Counted from the first letter of the stretch, positions 969 through 33,192 are shown. The stretch is 33,192 bases of DNA from a virus (IMGVR_UViG_3300032086_003438:1-33192); one strand, 5' to 3'. Numbers and translations are program-made. Notes: generated by a model from the letters alone, not told the origin.

Positions 969-1403
969 TTAAAAAGGAATATCATCATCAAAACTATCCC
1001 TTCCTTGAGCTGCTGGTGCCGGAGGTTGCTGAGAAGATGTATGCTGCGAGCTATTGTCTTTACTCTTACCTCCTAACATTTGCATCTCAAGCCCTATAAT
1101 CTCTGTACTGTAGCGATCCTGACCGCTTTGATCTTGCCATTTCCGGGTGCGCAAGGAGCCCTCAACATAAACTTGTGACCCCTTCTTAAGATATTCGCCC
1201 GCAATCTCCGCGAGCTTGTTGTAAAAAACAATCTTATGCCACTCTACGCGCTCTTTAGCTTCTCCTGTTTGCTTATCTTTCCATGATTCAGACGTGGCTA
1301 CACTAATATTTGCAACTGCTCCACCAGCAGGGATATAACGTATCTCCGGGTCTTGTCCAAGATTACCTACAATAGTGACTTTGTTTATGCCTTTTCTTGC
1401 CAT
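969..1403 (-). CDS. ssb: Single-stranded DNA-binding protein (SSB)
   Basis: A bacterial-type SSB of 144 residues. The OB-fold (about residues 1-108) begins [20 protein letters not shown] and includes the typical [24 protein letters not shown] stretch (given here in parts: [10 protein letters not shown], then [10 protein letters not shown]). A glutamine/serine/proline-rich linker leads to the acidic tip DDDIPF, the peptide that docks SSB partner proteins. It coats ssDNA during phage replication and recombination and would act with the Rad52-type annealing protein encoded at 8281. AGAGGAAA precedes the ATG. It sits directly left of the cassette array, so the array lies between the early promoter at 5782-5809 and ssb. 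Confidence 0.97.
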
Positions 1404-1429
1404 AATTTCCTCTTACTTATAAGTATATG

Positions 1430-1438
1430 TTATACGGT
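1430..1438 (+). repeat. Core-site-like GTTATACGG, extra left copy
   Basis: GTTATACGG, followed by TTTC, also occurs at 1500-1508 in the same orientation, and its complement CCGTATAAC lies in attC-1 at 1775-1783. The 61 bases between the two direct copies contain no TAACAA box and no attC fold. This copy could mark the original insertion target or a cassette whose attC has been lost. Confidence 0.5.
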
Positions 1439-1500
1439 TTCTTTCCCACTTATCAGGTTTTTTAATAGATAAACTAGAATCGATCCCTTGTATCACAGTG

Positions 1501-1755
1501 TTATACGGCTTTCATTTTTACATCGTAAGCGTCAACCATCTCGCCTTCAAATTCGACTTTATGGCCCGTTTTGAATAGGGCTGCTTGCTGAGAAATTCTT
1601 CCCCAAAAAATATTTTGTATCTCATCTGGTATGCCTTCACAAGCATCTTCCAATTCAAGAGATAGCAGTTCTTCGCATCTTTCTTTCGCCTCACTTTCAG
1701 TCTTGTGTGTTTCAAAACCGTCATCCCAGTGATAACTAAAAAATTTATCTTTCAT
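1501..1755 (-). CDS. Cassette gene 1: hypothetical protein, 84 residues
   Basis: I do not recognise this protein. It starts MKDKFFSYHWDDGFETHKTE and looks like a small soluble alpha/beta protein, with an acidic EELLSLELEDACE helix and a WGRISQQAALF segment. The ATG at 1755 is chosen over the longer frame because GGGAGAA lies 5 bases upstream. Its stop codon TAA (1503-1501) is the core-site sequence GTTA read on the minus strand. The 5' end lies just beyond attC-1. Confidence 0.75.
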   Translation of the reverse strand: MKDKFFSYHWDDGFETHKTESEAKERCEELLSLELEDACEGIPDEIQNIFWGRISQQAALFKTGHKVEFEGEMVDAYDVKMKAV

Positions 1756-1776
1756 AATTATTCTCCCAAAAAATCC

Positions 1777-1849
1777 GTATAACAACCGCAATTAAATCGT
1801 TTCACTCGGACAGCGTTTGCAACGCTGCCGTTTATTGCCAAGGTTAGTG
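1777..1849 (+). repeat. attC-1
   Basis: GTATAAC (R'' box) at 1777 and GTTAGTG (R' box) at 1843 flank an imperfect palindrome. The left arm GCAAT[T]AAA[T]CG pairs with the right arm, whose complement reads GCAATAAACG, leaving two bulged bases three nucleotides apart on the left arm only. The tip is a perfect 7-bp stem, CAGCGTT-TGC-AACGCTG (1811-1827). The stop codon of the ASCH gene is the TTA of the right box. Confidence 0.85.
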
Positions 1850-2188
1850 TGCAATACGTACCCAAGTTACAGCGCCTTGTGGGTGCTGGTAAGGTATGGG
1901 TTTATCGTATCTTTTAGCACCTTCTATTTCCCATGCGTAGCACCACTTATTTAGCAAATTAAAATCATCAACCCTATGATGTGAGTAGTGCAACCCATGC
2001 TCAATCGGGTCTAGCTTTATATGATCGCTATCAACAATTTTACATTCGCCAACAATTAGCCCTGAGCCTTGCTCAATCAATCCTATCTTGCCACGCACAT
2101 TAGTCGGCCTGCTTCTCATTTCCCACGTCTTTTTGCCGCTCAATATTAAATCAATCCACGGCTGCCTTACTATCAATGCTCTTTCCAT
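1844..2188 (-). CDS. Cassette gene 2: ASCH-domain protein
   Basis: A compact ASCH domain of 114 residues. The fold signature is clear: RQPWIDLILSGKKTWEMRS at the start, then GKIGLIEQGSGLIVGECKIV, and a C-terminal YAWEIEGAKRYDKPIPYQHP strand. ASCH proteins have a PUA-like beta-barrel and are thought to bind RNA or modified nucleotides; some hydrolyse modified cytidines. Which activity applies here cannot be read from the sequence. ASCH proteins are common in phage and mobile-element accessory regions. The TAA stop (1846-1844) is supplied by the attC-1 core box, and the start lies 15 bases left of attC-2. Confidence 0.88.
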   Translation of the reverse strand: MERALIVRQPWIDLILSGKKTWEMRSRPTNVRGKIGLIEQGSGLIVGECKIVDSDHIKLDPIEHGLHYSHHRVDDFNLLNKWCYAWEIEGAKRYDKPIPYQHPQGAVTWVRIAH

Positions 2189-2203
2189 AATTCAACTCCT
2201 GCA

Positions 2204-2272
2204 CACTAACAACTACGTCAATCTGATGTCTCAAAGCTGCGCTTTTCGCCACAGCTTACGTTTAGGTTATAA
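2204..2272 (+). repeat. attC-2
   Basis: CACTAAC at 2204 and GTTATAA at 2266 bound an imperfect palindrome. Left-arm ACGT[C]AA matches the complement of right-arm TTACGT with one bulged C on the left. The left flank GCACACTAAC is the exact complement of GTTAGTGTGC at attC-1, tying the two ends of the ASCH cassette together. An AAGCTG/CAGCTT stem lies within the variable tip. Confidence 0.8.
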
Positions 2273-2530
2273 CGCATTCACGCCTTCTAATTTGCAAGTC
2301 AAACTATCAACTTTAGATTGTAAATAGCACACCCTCGCCCCTAGCATTGTTGGCGTTACATCAGGCTGTAAAGTTCCGGTTATTTGAGCTATCTTTGCTT
2401 GCTCCAGTTGATGGAGTAGCTCTAACAAATAACTTTTTGCTATACCTTCTAATACTTCAGTTCTGCTTTCATGCGTTATAACAACGGCATCAAAACCGCT
2501 CCTGCCGTCGCTCGGACTCACTTCGTTCAT
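2267..2530 (-). CDS. Cassette gene 3: hypothetical protein, 87 residues
   Basis: I do not recognise this protein. From about residue 26 it is mostly helical (IAKSYLLELLHQLEQAKIAQ), with a later VCYLQSKVDSL helix. The only ATG in frame with a ribosome-binding site (GGAGAACGAA-ATG at 2530) lies inside attC-3, so the first 18 residues would be attC-encoded. A second ATG at 2472, directly after the attC-3 core box, reads MKAELKY then stops, yet a one-base shift would join MKAEL smoothly to EVLEGIAK. Either the gene starts in the attC loop or it carries a frameshift. The TAA stop (2269-2267) comes from the attC-2 core box. Confidence 0.55.
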   Translation of the reverse strand: MNEVSPSDGRSGFDAVVITHESRTEVLEGIAKSYLLELLHQLEQAKIAQITGTLQPDVTPTMLGARVCYLQSKVDSLTCKLEGVNAL

Positions 2531-2559
2531 TTCGTTCTCCGCTTATGCCAAGGTTATGT
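2476..2559 (+). repeat. attC-3
   Basis: TTATAAC at 2476 and GTTATGT at 2553. The left arm GGCAT[C]AAA[A]CCGC pairs with the arm whose complement is GGCATAAGCGG; two bulged bases lie three nucleotides apart on the left arm. The left flank ATGCGTTATAAC is a 12-base exact complement of GTTATAACGCAT at attC-2. The variable tip contains a ribosome-binding site and ATG (2530) used by, or usable for, cassette gene 3. Confidence 0.82.
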
Positions 2560-2560
2560 G

Positions 2561-2785
2561 TTAATTGGTTATCTCTACATCTAAATGGTAATTACTTGTC
2601 CAAGCACTAAGTGCGGCCATAGTCAGCATAGAAAGATAGCTTTGCTTGCCGCCCATCGAATTTTTATATGTAACTCGCGGCCTATGGTCTTTCAACCATT
2701 TTTCATAGCGATTTCTTTCATTAGCATAAAATTCGGCTTCTGCTTTTCGCTGCTGAAATGTACCTCTTCTTTTTGCTTCGCCCAT
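2561..2785 (-). CDS. Cassette gene 4: MGEAKRR-type small protein
   Basis: A 74-residue protein starting MGEAKRRGTFQQRKAEAEF, a highly basic N-terminus I recognise from many small phage and proteobacterial proteins of unknown role. A helical, charged N-terminal half is followed by a more hydrophobic segment (SMLTMAALSAWTSNYHLDV). The ATG at 2785 lies 19 bases from attC-4, and the TAA stop is about 2 bases beyond the attC-3 core box. No function is established to my knowledge. Confidence 0.82.
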   Translation of the reverse strand: MGEAKRRGTFQQRKAEAEFYANERNRYEKWLKDHRPRVTYKNSMGGKQSYLSMLTMAALSAWTSNYHLDVEITN

Positions 2786-2803
2786 AAATCCTCCAAATTA
2801 ATC

Positions 2804-2859
2804 ACATAACAACTAATTCCACTTGAGCGGCAAGCCGCCAAGTGAATAGGCGGTTATAA
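2804..2859 (+). repeat. attC-4
   Basis: ACATAAC at 2804 and GTTATAA at 2853. This 56-base site folds almost completely: CACTTG[A]GCGGC-AA-GCCGCCAAGTG forms the stem with a bulged A, and a bulged C lies in the outer left arm (ATT[C] against ATT). It is the most compact, textbook-looking site of the array. The left flank CACATAAC complements GTTATGTG at attC-3. Confidence 0.88.
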
Positions 2860-3045
2860 AGATTCCTCACACCATTCACGCTCATTGCCTCCATCAGCAA
2901 CACCGATTTTAGTTGTATTAATTTCGTGCGTATCTTCGTCAACCTTCCACCCAAGCAGTTTAATCGCTCGCTCTTCGCTTTCCGCCTGCACTACGGCAGA
3001 TAGTCCAAAACCTAAATAATCCCGCCAGCAAAAATATATATTCAT
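2854..3045 (-). CDS. Cassette gene 5: hypothetical protein, 63 residues
   Basis: I do not recognise the family. It starts MNIYFCWRDYLGFGLSAVVQ and continues AESEERAIKLLGWKVDED, an arrangement of a short strand pair, a helix and an acidic stretch, soluble. The frame stays open further upstream through attC-5, but ATG 3045 just beyond the site is preferred. The TAA stop (2856-2854) comes from the attC-4 core box. Confidence 0.7.
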   Translation of the reverse strand: MNIYFCWRDYLGFGLSAVVQAESEERAIKLLGWKVDEDTHEINTTKIGVADGGNEREWCEESL

Positions 3046-3059
3046 CTCAAACCCCATCT

Positions 3060-3118
3060 TTATAACAAAGCAAAGCAGTCGGATTGCGTACCGCAACCGC
3101 TGTTTGCAATGGTTAGCT
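3060..3118 (+). repeat. attC-5
   Basis: TTATAAC at 3060 and GTTAGCT at 3112. The left arm GCAAA[G]CAG[T]CGG[A]TTGCG pairs with the arm whose complement is GCAAACAGCGGTTGCG, around a TAC loop; all bulges are on the left arm and the first two are three nucleotides apart. The flank ATCTTTATAAC is an 11-base complement of GTTATAAAGAT at attC-4. Confidence 0.88.
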
Positions 3119-3119
3119 G

Positions 3120-3473
3120 TCACTTAGTCGCTGGATATAACGGCATGTTTGTAGGCATCCAGTGAGTAATATTTTTAAGCATTACCTGTTCGCAATAAGT
3201 CTCAGCGTAAATGTCGCTAGTTTCAGCGAAGCCGATATCGTCAAACCATGCCACAAGCGCAATACGGCTCAAGCCCCCTTTCTTAATTGTTGCCCAAAAA
3301 GGTCTTGCGTTTGGGTTTTGCTCGGGCTTGCAAGCCCTTGTATCCATCCATGCGCCAACTTTCGCACATTCAAGTTGTCGTTCTAAATCTTCGATTTTTT
3401 TATCTGCTGTCAAAAAATCATCAACCAGTCGTCTTAGTAAATCCGGTAATCTTTCTATTGTTCTTTCGTTCAT
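3120..3473 (-). CDS. Cassette gene 6: DUF551-like protein
   Basis: A 117-residue protein. The N-terminal part is a helix/coiled coil (LRRLVDDFLTADKKIEDLER). The C-terminal part runs RIALVAWFDDIGF ... VMLKNITHWMPTNMPLYP, and the THWMP(x)nMP ending resembles DUF551 proteins common in phage early regions, whose function is unknown. The TGA stop lies 2 bases beyond the attC-5 core box and the ATG (3473) lies 23 bases left of attC-6. A DUF551-type gene in a cassette suggests phage genes themselves become cassette cargo. Confidence 0.8.
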   Translation of the reverse strand: MNERTIERLPDLLRRLVDDFLTADKKIEDLERQLECAKVGAWMDTRACKPEQNPNARPFWATIKKGGLSRIALVAWFDDIGFAETSDIYAETYCEQVMLKNITHWMPTNMPLYPATK

Positions 3474-3496
3474 TTCTTGTCTCTCACTAAATTATC

Positions 3497-3555
3497 AGCT
3501 AACAACTCGCTTAATTTCGACTCGCTAACGCTCGCGCATTAGCTCTAGGTTATAC
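3497..3555 (+). repeat. attC-6
   Basis: AGCTAAC at 3497 and GTTATAC at 3549. The left arm GCT[T]AAT[T]TCG pairs with the arm whose complement reads GCTAATGCG: two bulged bases three nucleotides apart on the left arm. The flank CAGCTAAC complements GTTAGCTG at attC-5. Confidence 0.8.
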
Positions 3556-3885
3556 GCCAAGCGCTTTCTGTTGCTTGTAATAGTCCATGTCATAATGTCT
3601 ACCAATCCACGCGGGTTCTGTGTTCCATGCGCCAAAGCGGTTTTGCTTTAGGCTTTGGTAGTTGTATCTGTAGTGGTAGTCATGCTCTCTACCCCATACG
3701 TCCTTGGGCAGGTCAACGTAATTGCATGGCACCCACCATTGATCAAGCTCACATTGCACCGCATTTTTAGGCAATGTCATACGGCCTACTATTTCAAATA
3801 TCGGCGCGTAAAGGCGTATAACAAAGCATTTCAACGCTGACCCACTGCTGCGGTGCTTGTTTGCATCTTCATATAGTTTGTTCAT
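3550..3885 (-). CDS. Cassette gene 7: hypothetical aromatic-rich protein, 111 residues
   Basis: I do not recognise this protein. It is strikingly rich in Trp and Tyr (DQWWVPCNYVDLPKDVWGRE, then DYHYRYNYQSLKQNRFGAWN and a YDMDYYKQQ tail), suggesting a compact binding domain. The ATG at 3885 (GGAG 9 bases upstream) lies inside attC-7, so about 23 N-terminal residues would be attC-encoded; ATG 3780 (MTLPKNAVQ), just outside the site, is the alternative. The TAA stop (3552-3550) is the attC-6 core box read backwards. Confidence 0.7.
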   Translation of the reverse strand: MNKLYEDANKHRSSGSALKCFVIRLYAPIFEIVGRMTLPKNAVQCELDQWWVPCNYVDLPKDVWGREHDYHYRYNYQSLKQNRFGAWNTEPAWIGRHYDMDYYKQQKALGV

Positions 3886-3939
3886 GTTCCTAGTCTCCAG
3901 TGTTCTGTTTCCGTGGTCAGGTTAAATGCAACGTTATAT
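3816..3939 (+). repeat. attC-7 (long, VCR-sized)
   Basis: GTATAAC at 3816 and GTTATAT at 3933, 124 bases, close to the length of Vibrio VCR sites. The left arm GCATTT[C]AAC[G]CTGACC[C]AC pairs with the right arm, whose complement is GCATTTAACCTGACCAC: 17 pairs, with three bulged bases on the left only. The flank GGCGTATAAC complements GTTATACGCC at attC-6. Nothing like a further attC is found to the right, so this is the array end. Confidence 0.9.
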
Positions 3940-3960
3940 GGTTTTCATTATTTAAACCCC

Positions 3961-4209
3961 TTAATCTTTAGGCAAATTTACATTGTTATAGTAGTCGCAG
4001 GCTTCCGCGCATATATAAAAGTAAATGCAAAAACCCACTAAGAAAAAAGGATCAAGAATATGAAAGAAATATTCGCCAAATATTATTTTCTCAAGCTCTA
4101 CCTCAATAAACATGAAAAACATGTAATAAATAAAAACATCGACAGCACAATAAAGCTTTTTCCCTTGATTATGAAAAGCGCATCTAACTGAACTATTGAC
4201 AAAAAACAT
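3961..4209 (-). CDS. Small membrane protein, 82 residues
   Basis: Two hydrophobic stretches (around YCAVDVFIYYMFFMFIEV and ILDPFFLVGFCIYFYICAEA) suggest two membrane segments, with a short basic loop near the start. ATG 4209 is preferred because AAAGG lies 7 bases upstream; an ATG at 4230 would add 7 residues. It is the first gene right of the array and has no attC on its own 5' side, so it is not a complete cassette. Function unknown; small phage membrane proteins here are often host-takeover or exclusion factors, but nothing specific shows that. Confidence 0.6.
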   Translation of the reverse strand: MFFVNSSVRCAFHNQGKKLYCAVDVFIYYMFFMFIEVELEKIIFGEYFFHILDPFFLVGFCIYFYICAEACDYYNNVNLPKD

Positions 4210-4314
4210 TATGAGACCTTTAAAATTCATTTTAATTAACTATCCCCATCACCAGACAACGCCCCATCAATATGATCTTTTAAAAATTGACTGGGCTAGA
4301 CAAATTTTCTGCTT

Positions 4315-4514: not shown

Positions 4515-5129
4515 CTAACCGATTTGAGACATTTTTTGCACGGCTTCCTCTGCCTCTTGCTCTGTTTTGAAATTGTTTTGCGAAAAAATATATTCCCAAG
4601 CCACTGCAAACACTTTTTTGTAAAACTCATTGAATTCTTCTTGCGACATTTTATTGAATGATATTGAATGCAACTCTTTCCTTACTCCTGTAGGCGTCAA
4701 GACTGCATCATAATACCCGGCCTCTTCTTTTAACCATTTATGTATCTGATCAAGTCTATTTGCCGCCTTTTCAACTTGAGAAATTTTACTTTTGATTCTT
4801 CCGGCTCTGTCGGAAAGGTACGCATTTATTAGTGTACATATTGCCATAGTATCCACTCCTTGAGAGGCGACAAATTGCACTAGCCCTGACATAATTTTTT
4901 TATCACCTTTGGGGATCAAGCCTTGCTCCGCATCCCAATAATCAGAGACTAACCTCACTAGACCTCCAAAATAAAGCTTATGATGCTGAATCGATCTTGA
5001 ACTGGCTTTTTTTATCAAAACCTTGCAAGGCTCGCCATAATTTAAAGATTCTAACTTTTCTTCGTCAGCCAATGACGCGACAATCAAAGTATTTTTAGAC
5101 GCTTTTTGAGCCATTATCTCTATAGACAT
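4515..5129 (-). CDS. DUF1367-like / NinB-like early phage protein
   Basis: A 204-residue protein resembling the DUF1367 / NinB group of early phage proteins. The hallmark is an HHKLYFGGLVRLVSDYWDAE segment about residues 49-68, followed by helices and an aromatic C-terminal region (FNEFYKKVFAVAWEYIF). NinB proteins act in recombination, but I cannot confirm catalytic residues here. Start 5129 is uncertain: ATG 5114 (MAQKASKN) is equally possible and would leave the small ORF at 5120-5200 almost non-overlapping. Confidence 0.72.
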   Translation of the reverse strand: MSIEIMAQKASKNTLIVASLADEEKLESLNYGEPCKVLIKKASSRSIQHHKLYFGGLVRLVSDYWDAEQGLIPKGDKKIMSGLVQFVASQGVDTMAICTLINAYLSDRAGRIKSKISQVEKAANRLDQIHKWLKEEAGYYDAVLTPTGVRKELHSISFNKMSQEEFNEFYKKVFAVAWEYIFSQNNFKTEQEAEEAVQKMSQIG

Positions 5130-8238: not shown

Positions 8239-8280
8239 TCGTATTAACTTAAGAGATTAACTAAAAGAGATTGAGTGCTT

Positions 8281-9225
8281 ATGAATATTAAAGAGCTTGC
8301 AAAAAAATTCAAACCCGAAGATATTGAGTGGCGCGTACAGTCTTGCGGCATAACGGGGAATAAAAACAGCGGCGGCAAACCATGGGCGCTTATTATACCT
8401 TACGTTACCAACCGAGCAATCCAGCAAAGGCTAGACGATGTTGCTGGCGGAGGTAATTGGAAAAACGAATACAAGCAGTCGCCATGCGGCAATGGAACTC
8501 TTTGTGGTATTTCAATAAAGATTGGTGATGAATGGATTACCCGATGGGATGGCGCTGAAAACCCAACAGGCAAGAAAAACGAACAGCTAGATGCGGTTAA
8601 GACTGCATTATCTAACTCGATGAAGCGTGCAGGCGTACAGTGGGGAATAGGCCGTTACCTTTACGAGCTAGACGCAGTATTCGCTATATGTGATTGGTGT
8701 GACTATAGATCGCAAACGCCAGAAGGGTTTAATTACCAGTACAAGCAAAAGAAAGGTGAAGCGCCAGCTTATGGGTTTGCTTGGAAAGCGCCAGAATTGC
8801 CAGTTTGGGCTAGGCCGCTAAAGAAGAACGAAATACTTGGTTACCAGCAAATGCTCGAAGAATGCGAAACCAAGCAGGAGCTGAAAAAGGCTTGGTCTGA
8901 GTGTTACAAAATGGTTATATCTGAGTGCAATTCAGACTTGCAAAAACACTTCGAGGAAATAAAAGATCGGATGAAAGCTGATTTTGAAGAAGCGGAAGAA
9001 GCCGAGCGCAAAGAGCAGGCAGATAAGCGATACGAGATAATAGCTGGCTATATTGATCATATAAATGCGGCGGTAAATGATTCAGCCGCTAAGGGTTTAA
9101 CCGTTAACGCCATAGATCAACTTGGTAAGATACTATCAAAACAGCATTTGCATGATGCTGTTAAAAAGCTAAAAGCTGCTGAAACAAATAAACTAAAACA
9201 ACTTAATGGTGGACAATATGAGTAA
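8281..9225 (+). CDS. Rad52/Rad22-family single-strand annealing protein
   Basis: 314 residues. Residues about 15-165 carry the Rad52/22 fold seen in phage annealing proteins: WRVQSCGI, ALIIPYVTNRAIQQRLDDVA, GNWKNEY, then the conserved DAVKTALSNSMKRAGVQWGI-GRYLYEL segment. The rest is a charged helical tail. Such proteins anneal ssDNA for recombination and recircularisation, working with SSB. ATG 8281 is chosen over GTG 8275 for spacing to AGAGA. It is the first gene of the rightward operon and overlaps the next gene (ATGAGTAA). Confidence 0.9.
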   Translation: MNIKELAKKFKPEDIEWRVQSCGITGNKNSGGKPWALIIPYVTNRAIQQRLDDVAGGGNWKNEYKQSPCGNGTLCGISIKIGDEWITRWDGAENPTGKKNEQLDAVKTALSNSMKRAGVQWGIGRYLYELDAVFAICDWCDYRSQTPEGFNYQYKQKKGEAPAYGFAWKAPELPVWARPLKKNEILGYQQMLEECETKQELKKAWSECYKMVISECNSDLQKHFEEIKDRMKADFEEAEEAERKEQADKRYEIIAGYIDHINAAVNDSAAKGLTVNAIDQLGKILSKQHLHDAVKKLKAAETNKLKQLNGGQYE

Positions 9226-32024: not shown

Positions 32025-32117
32025 TTAAAAAATTAATGCCGAAATAATACATAAAATACAAAATACTATCCAACAAGAAAAAATAATATCTATATGTCGC
32101 TGAATGAAATCTCTCAT
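32025..32117 (-). CDS. Small membrane peptide in the DUF6745 operon, 30 residues
   Basis: ATG 32117 overlaps the TGA of the DUF6745 gene (ATGA), and the TAA comes 16 bases before the partner gene's ATG. The peptide begins MRDFIQRHIDIIFSCWIVFC and is a single membrane helix (about residues 10-30) with a charged, cytoplasmic-type N-terminus. The tight coupling implies it is translated. It suggests a membrane link for this operon. Confidence 0.62.
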   Translation of the reverse strand: MRDFIQRHIDIIFSCWIVFCILCIISALIF

Positions 32118-33192
32118 GTTCTAACCTCTGGAATGTACATATCTTCTGTTGTAAAGTTTAGCCACGCCTGAGCCTGACTTGCCCTAACCATATCAGGGGG
32201 GACAGGAAGCGCAAACTCTCGGCCAGTCCCACACATCACTCTAAGGAATTTTTCTTTTCCAACATCTGGCAAATTAACCTCAAGAAGCTCTCCAACAAAA
32301 GGATTTTCATTTTTATCAATGCTTTTTGCTTTCAGCTCAATCAAAATATTGTTCCATCCTACTATCTCACAAGCCGCTCTGCGTTGTTCCATATTAGATA
32401 TGGACAAAGCCGAACTAGCAGTCAAATTTTGACTTAAAATCCAATCTTTAGGAACCTTTACCCCATGCCAAGAATAAACAGAAAAACCATCTCGATACAA
32501 AATAGATGGGCCATTCTCACAATGAAGCCTTTTTTGATCATCAAATTTTATTAATTCTGGCCTATCCTGCATGATCACACAATTCTCATATGGAGCCCAC
32601 CAACCGCAATTTTCAGCTAAATTCATTAGCGGCTTTAATCTTTTGCAATCGACAACCCCCAATTCCAGCATCACATCATAAAAACTAAGCCAGTTAGCAT
32701 CGTGGCAACCATAGACCTGATCCCCGACGTAATCCCAGACTTGAGCCCCGAACTGATCCCCAACCTGATCCCTGACCTTAGCCCTGACCTGATCCCCGAC
32801 CTGAGCCCCGACGTGAGCCCAGACTTGATCCATGACCTTAGCCCCAACCTGATCCTTGACCTGATCCCAGACTTGAGCCCTGACTTGATCCCTGACGTGA
32901 GCCCCGACCTGAGCCCCGGCCTGATCCATGACCTTAGCCCTGACCTGATCCCAGACTTGATCACTGACTTTAGCCCAGACCTTAGTCCCGGCCTGATCCC
33001 CGACGTGAGCCCAGACTTGAGCCCCGGCCTGATCCATGACCTTAGCCCTGACTTGAGCCCAGACTTGATCCATGACCTGATCCCCGACCTGATCCCCGAC
33101 CTGATCCCCGACGTGAGCCCAGACTTGAGCCCCGGCCTGATCCATGACCTTAGCCCTGACTTGAGCCCAGACTTGATCCACGACCTGATCAC
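32114..33192 (-). CDS. DUF6745-type tetrapeptide-repeat protein, repeats and C-terminal domain
   Basis: Continues from the segment at 1-448 across the circular joint. The first part here is about 160 residues of tetrapeptide repeats ([20 protein letters not shown] and so on). The C-terminal 200 residues (GCHDANWLSFYDVMLELGVV, NLAENCGWWAPYENCVIMQD, LHCENGPSILYRDGFSVYSW-HGVKVP, and the end FALPVPPDMVRASQAQAWLN) match the conserved DUF6745 C-domain, which is often preceded by LxSQ-type repeats. Function unknown. Tetrapeptide periodicity with Val at one position suggests an extended helical or solenoid stalk. Confidence 0.85.
   Translation of the reverse strand, partial: DQVVDQVWAQVRAKVMDQAGAQVWAHVGDQVGDQVGDQVMDQVWAQVRAKVMDQAGAQVWAHVGDQAGTKVWAKVSDQVWDQVRAKVMDQAGAQVGAHVRDQVRAQVWDQVKDQVGAKVMDQVWAHVGAQVGDQVRAKVRDQVGDQFGAQVWDYVGDQVYGCHDANWLSFYDVMLELGVVDCKRLKPLMNLAENCGWWAPYENCVIMQDRPELIKFDDQKRLHCENGPSILYRDGFSVYSWHGVKVPKDWILSQNLTASSALSISNMEQRRAACEIVGWNNILIELKAKSIDKNENPFVGELLEVNLPDVGKEKFLRVMCGTGREFALPVPPDMVRASQAQAWLNFTTEDMYIPEVRT
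32714..33192. repeat. 12-bp tandem repeat array with 108-bp higher-order repeat, right part
   Basis: About 40 degenerate 12-bp units. A longer block starting at 32998 is repeated at 33106, 108 bp (nine units) later; over about 83 bases I see a single difference (CATGACC against CACGACC). The array runs over the contig joint into 1-220, for about 51 units (roughly 205 residues) in the circular form. Confidence 0.9.
33106..33192. repeat. Terminal redundancy, right copy (identical to 1-87)
   Basis: Exact copy of bases 1-87; see the left copy. Removing one copy gives a circle of 33,105 bp and restores an uninterrupted reading frame for the DUF6745-type gene. Confidence 0.9.

Follow-up and report, generated by a model that had tools for sequence, protein, structure and literature searches.

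The region 1501-3933 of the virus sequence IMGVR_UViG_3300032086_003438:1-33192 (hereafter the window, i.e., the whole stretch of DNA that was analysed, 33,192 bases) is probably a mobile integron-type array, namely a cluster of attC sites lacking an integrase (CALIN), carried by a tailed phage within its early operon; its cassettes have an inverted polarity and would be moved in trans by a host integrase. The record encodes TerL, portal-like, capsid and internal-virion genes. The array is bounded by an SSB gene (969-1403, - strand; Pfam SSB 3.9e-40), located directly downstream in the direction of transcription, and by a DUF1367 gene (4515-5129, - strand). Between them are seven small open reading frames (ORFs), all on the - strand, divided by seven attC-like sites with the + strand pattern YTAACAA (R'') ... 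[G/C]GTTA (R'). Seven sites are thus contained in 2.2 kb, while at least two within a few kb are asked of a CALIN.

The clustering of the boxes is far above expectation: 1400-4000 contains 8 R''/R' box pairs, whereas 2000 dinucleotide shuffles gave 0.31 on average and never more than 3, and no other 2.6 kb stretch of the genome exceeds 2. This comparison confirms the seven attC-like sites with core boxes that a sequence-only reading of the window had proposed, all on the + strand. The same reading described left-arm bulges mostly 3 nt apart. Inspection of the arm pairing of the seven sites places the core-stem bulges on the left (L'') arm, mostly at this spacing; sites 2804, 3060 and 3816 show them clearly, 2204 and 3497 more weakly, and 1777 and 2476 poorly.

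The sites were also compared with a covariance model trained only on attCs upstream of bacterial intI genes (loci L021-L100), class 1 and Shewanella attCs. As a control, the model recovered known arrays in the correct orientation. When the 33 kb were scanned on both strands, five of the ten best matches fell inside the array, all on the + strand and with 9-19 bits. The check by an attC model suggested earlier, run with a model of our own, recovered five of the seven sites and missed sites 1 and 3. Since off-array matches reach 15 bits in the window, the sites taken individually are weak evidence and the cluster is decisive. A search of the window against Rfam, which holds no attC family, gave no match.

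All the sites are on the + strand. Site 1 (1777-1849) has the boxes R'' GTATAAC ... R' GTTAGTG and the inner stem CGG[A]CAGCG/CGCTGCCG, both recognised by reading, the model being silent at E<=10. Site 2 (2204-2272; 14.6 bits) has left-arm bulges. Site 3 (2476-2559) has the weakest arms: its R boxes and CGGAC motif were recognised by reading, its arms pair poorly and it is below the reach of the model. Site 4 (2804-2859; 16.5 bits) has three left-arm bulges, and site 5 (3060-3118; 9.4 bits) has the bulges G, T and A at 3 nt spacing. Site 6 (3497-3555) scores 11.7 bits. Site 7 (3816-3939; 19.4 bits), the top match of the window, has a long loop (124 nt) and shares bases with the 5' portion of the ORF of gene 7; its true end is 3939 (CGTTATAT), the GGTTA at 3920 being a wrong end. 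The R box of cassette 1, GTTATACGG, was read twice at the left edge in direct orientation, 71 bp apart at 1429 and 1500 (1429-1506, + strand); this duplication may be what is left of a cassette since lost, or else an attG-like site of insertion.

Read on the + strand, a unit begins at the cut point G^TT (R'), continues with a gene on the - strand and closes with its own R''-L''-loop-L'. In the window the R'' box matches the first bases of its own cassette at 7.7 of 10 positions, vs. 3.7 of 10 for the box of the next cassette; the corresponding values are 6.1 vs. 4.1 for other virus arrays and 6.3 vs. 4.8 for bacterial integrons. Pairing with its own start, and not with the next box, is expected of circles opened at G^TT. 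Examples are GTTAGTGTGC...GCACACTAAC for cassette 2 and GTTATAACGCAT...ATGCGTTATAAC for cassette 3. The units have the make-up of gene cassettes, i.e., G^TTRRRY to G, one gene plus an attC, and an R'' complementing their own 5' end.

It could be argued that what separates the early genes are regulatory hairpins of the phage, merely attC-like, since the sites are intergenic in one operon, where they could serve as weak terminators or leaders, and have low single-site model scores. This is hardly credible: the bulges are correctly on the L'' side, R'' complements its own start, the units are exchanged as such (see below), other phages have strong attCs (30-46 bits) in comparable positions, and the sites of phage PH101 are recombined by IntI1, with the bottom strand better used (PMC9892861).

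All seven genes of the window are antisense to the top strand of their attC, i.e., the usual (though not strictly required) co-orientation is absent. Canonical cassettes, as seen in the controls (Vibrio, Shewanella, class 1 and TJE1), have their gene reading toward TAACAA. The polarity is based on the orientation of the bulges and of the model matches, plus the side on which the attC body travels in a pair of Mom cassettes described below; the match of R'' to its own start does not fix it by itself. The - strand is firm for the ASCH gene of cassette 2 (Pfam 2.8e-7). For the gene of cassette 6, the third codon position of the - frame takes 59 of the 86 differences to its relative in L361 and 33 of 51 to that in L360. 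The earlier interpretation as integron-type cassettes without integrase is retained; it had overlooked the inverted polarity of every cassette, which changes what the array is taken to be.

The genes, all on the - strand, are as follows. Cassette 1 (unit 1501-1843) contains a 96-amino-acid ORF (1501-1791), a weak relative of phrog_21696 with a probable ATG near 1755; its stop codon is supplied by the TTA within the G^TTA box at 1500. Cassette 2 (unit 1844-2266) encodes an ASCH-domain protein of 114 amino acids (1844-2188), a 59% identical relative of which occupies a reversed cassette in L010/L019; further ASCH relatives, from Vibrio phages and from L008-L009 and L011-L013, were set aside, being outside attC arrays. 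The 87-amino-acid ORF of cassette 3 (2267-2530; unit 2267-2553) runs into attC 3. Cassette 4 (unit 2554-2853) has a 74-amino-acid ORF (2561-2785), an equally long ORF being present on the + strand. Cassette 5 (unit 2854-3112) has an 89-amino-acid ORF (2854-3123; probable ATG near 3045), and cassette 6 (unit 3113-3549) a gene of 117 amino acids (3120-3473) with a weak DUF551 likeness. For the 111-amino-acid ORF of cassette 7 (3550-3885; possible ATG near 3780; unit 3550-3933), no viral relative was found.

Virus arrays were collected by two pattern scans of IMG/VR filtered by the covariance model and by one ASCH search. About 20 more virus contigs with at least two attCs were obtained; this sample was picked by TAACAA/GCGTTA-type patterns, other attC types being under-sampled, and the records may be fragments or contain host DNA. 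A generic attC pattern scan returned mostly chance matches, and the stricter pattern succeeded. Polarity was called automatically from the longest ORF of each interval, with a ratio of 1.25. By this rule, 35 cassettes are co-oriented and 6 reversed in bacterial intI loci, vs. 15 co-oriented and 54 reversed in virus contigs, these counts being approximate since the rule errs (L114 is called reversed, while inspection shows it to be co-oriented). Nine of the 15 co-oriented virus cassettes come from one bacterial-type array, L317. With duplicates and L317 removed, about 44 virus cassettes are reversed and 6 co-oriented (vs. 6 and 35 for bacteria; Fisher 8e-13). Some 20 virus arrays show the reversed polarity. 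L317 (IMGVR_UViG_2834908352_000001) is a canonical array of 14 attCs in a record filed as a virus, i.e., a prophage edge or host DNA.

The gene content agrees with the strand calls: 66 reversed-strand ORFs of the virus arrays match 6 Pfam and 29 PHROG families (Lar twice, ASCH twice, Mom, Dam, SSB, primase, RNase H), vs. no Pfam and one weak PHROG family for the 51 attC-strand ORFs of the same arrays. The array contigs carry TerL and other hallmark genes of several unrelated kinds of phages (G001 was judged by its ORFs). In phage G006 (L134; L228 1698-5300 and 8028-9856), two opposed attC arrays are found around SSB and Rad52-type genes, each opposite to the local genes. Of 56 reversed genes, 33 (e.g., L179 10122, 10507 and 11078) end at the recombination cut point itself, their TAA stop coinciding with the TTA of the G^TTA box; this excess was set aside as evidence, one third being expected from the frame alone.

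The content of the locus varies among relatives and is not fixed, fixed content being what the sequence-only reading had named as a refutation. In a close relative, G011 (major capsid protein 79%, portal 77%), four or more attCs form a separate array with different cassettes at the equivalent place, immediately ahead of an SSB-like gene. One of them (L267 5765-6067, - strand) is canonical, so antisense to phage transcription, and is perhaps a freshly captured bacterial cassette. The gene just beyond attC 7 of the window (3961-4230, - strand) is related at 34% to a cassette gene of G011, though it lacks an attC of its own here. A search for relatives based on DUF1367 gave only one distant contig, devoid of an array.

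Relatives of cassette 6, with 84-93% protein identity, are found in four virus contigs with unrelated flanks. At the DNA level the similarity extends over 396 bp (97.2%) for L358/L359, 397 bp (84.9%) for L360 and 363 bp (76.9%) for L361. It begins at GTTAGCTG (R') and stops at CAGCTAACAA (R''), with none outside. No relative was found in plasmids or named phages, bacterial genomes not having been searched. These findings bear on the view that the array is a frozen relic, i.e., a piece of a bacterial integron captured once and since then handed down solely with the phage. The degeneracy of several sites (1777, 2476), the absence of an integrase and the retention of the same array by the near-identical phage contigs G005 and G023 speak for a relic; it is nevertheless unlikely, since bacterial arrays are co-oriented while that of the window is wholly reversed, the cassettes differ in G011, and cassette 6 occurs in unrelated contexts.

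Another case of exchange is a 651 bp Mom cassette shared by L291 and L294 (94.5% identity), which extends exactly from G^TTATG to G^TTAG, including the attC body, with no similarity beyond. This pair fixes the polarity, because the attC body that travels sits at the 5' end of the gene, matching the orientation given by the model. Units moving with breaks at R boxes are thus seen in two forms, from R' to R' for the Mom pair and at R' and R'' for cassette 6, the attC body being left behind in the latter. In cassette 6, the gene and its R'/R'' boxes are joined to differing L''-loop-L' bodies (window 3497-3555, L358 2920-2977, L360 2772-2820, L361 667-714), as in the Mom cassette of L356 (2944-3019); in both cases the swaps look as if gene and hairpin had been exchanged separately. 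Elsewhere, the otherwise different phages G024 (L331, 1-1855) and G025 (L334, 1-1856) have in common a segment of 98% identity that contains two attCs of reversed polarity along with DNA methyltransferase genes; a supposed cassette difference between them is actually an ordinary deletion/fusion inside repeated genes.

The swapped bodies of cassette 6 and of the L356 Mom cassette are what would be left if the phage's own annealing recombination (a Rad52-like protein and SSB) used the R boxes as short homology, in place of an integron integrase. A Rad52-family gene is present at 8275-9225 and the SSB gene adjoins the array. This mechanism is judged improbable: in the L291/L294 pair both breakpoints fall exactly at G^TT and the attC body is included, and the left-arm bulge geometry and the match of R'' to its own start would have no reason to persist in the absence of IntI.

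No integron integrase was found in the window: TIGR02249 gave no match and the 33 kb record, which may be incomplete, contains no candidates, in agreement with the earlier statement on this point. The locus is not a complete integron (intI, attI and Pc), as intI is absent; attI was looked for only by reading the left edge. Tyrosine recombinases are lacking in most other array contigs and present in some. A host enzyme is proposed because the phage has none, and the exact R-box boundaries together with this absence suggest that a host integron integrase moves the cassettes of the window. Some sites of PH101, TJE1 and P12002L recombine with attI1 via IntI1 (PMC9892861).

In the mobile array favoured here, the host integrase would excise and insert cassettes using the folded bottom strand. 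With gene and attC in opposite senses, the bottom strand that recombines would be the coding strand. It would be displaced during transcription and, if the early genes are co-directional with the fork, would also be the lagging-strand template. In bacteria, attC bottom strands located on the lagging template fold and recombine more, and chromosomal integrons mostly keep them on the leading template (PMC8946536). We propose that a bottom strand exposed by transcription and replication should raise cassette exchange, which may be the reason for the inverted polarity. Exchange would renew a set of small early genes, which in several phages include anti-restriction or DNA-modification genes (Lar, Mom, Dam). 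An isolation of expression may follow as a side effect: cassettes transferred either way, from a phage into a host attI or from a host into the phage, would be antisense to the promoter. Since a reversed phage cassette in a bacterial attI would be antisense to Pc, the array cannot be regarded simply as a bacterial one in passage.

Several points weigh against this interpretation or against parts of it: (i) no integrase was found and no host is assigned, so that the enzyme can only be inferred; (ii) the co-directionality of fork and early genes is an assumption for this phage; (iii) single sites score low with the covariance model, which misses two of the seven (sites 1 and 3); (iv) the attC body between R'' and R' differs among the relatives of cassette 6, which a single bottom-strand event at R' cannot explain; (v) polarity calls by the longest ORF are noisy, 17 of the 88 virus intervals being ambiguous and two having no usable ORF.

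A broader proposal, for which the chances appear evenly balanced, is that phages own a distinct and widespread pool of inverted-polarity cassettes, in which the coding strand is the attC bottom strand, with ready exchange via a borrowed host integrase while the phage is transcribed and replicated, and mutual silence with host cassettes. Such a pool would be the counterpart of the defence libraries of bacterial integrons, described recently as anti-phage in the 2025 Science and Nature Microbiology papers as cited in PMC12444791. If this is true, a phage cassette pool with Lar, Mom and Dam means that phages and bacteria rely on one and the same recombination system in their arms race. It would also give a handle on what sets cassette polarity, on the origin of cassettes and on the control of exchange by strand exposure. 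In practice, a gene finder or a reader expecting the bacterial polarity misassigns the cassette boundaries because phage arrays are reversed.

Finally, the ends of the window, 1-526 and 32114-33190 (- strand), encode parts of a repeat-rich protein, probably one gene split by the ends of a circular or permuted genome.

The closest known systems are the phage CALINs of Qi et al. 2023 (TJE1, PH101, P12002L and MW202573; PMC9892861), which, like the window, are attC arrays without integrase. The carriage of a CALIN by a phage, put forward from the sequence of the window alone, is supported here and had already been published. That study calls the cassettes of TJE1 and PH101 same-direction, and the inverted polarity is missing from its main text. 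With the covariance model, every annotated array gene of PH101 and MW202573 is opposite to the attCs and TJE1 is co-oriented; P12002L gave no match. New relative to these published arrays are the cassette set of the window, the hypervariable locus in its relatives and the cassettes that are shared. Sedentary chromosomal integrons (Vibrio, Shewanella, Pseudomonas) have the same attC architecture, one small gene per cassette and an R'' complementing its own start; they differ from the window by the presence of an integrase and attI and by genes co-oriented with attC (35:6) and read from Pc (PMC3607928, PMC12444791). Hypervariable early phage regions with small anti-defence genes likewise contain small early genes near SSB, of the Lar, Mom, Dam and ASCH types. 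Unlike in those regions, each gene of the window is bounded by an integron recombination site.

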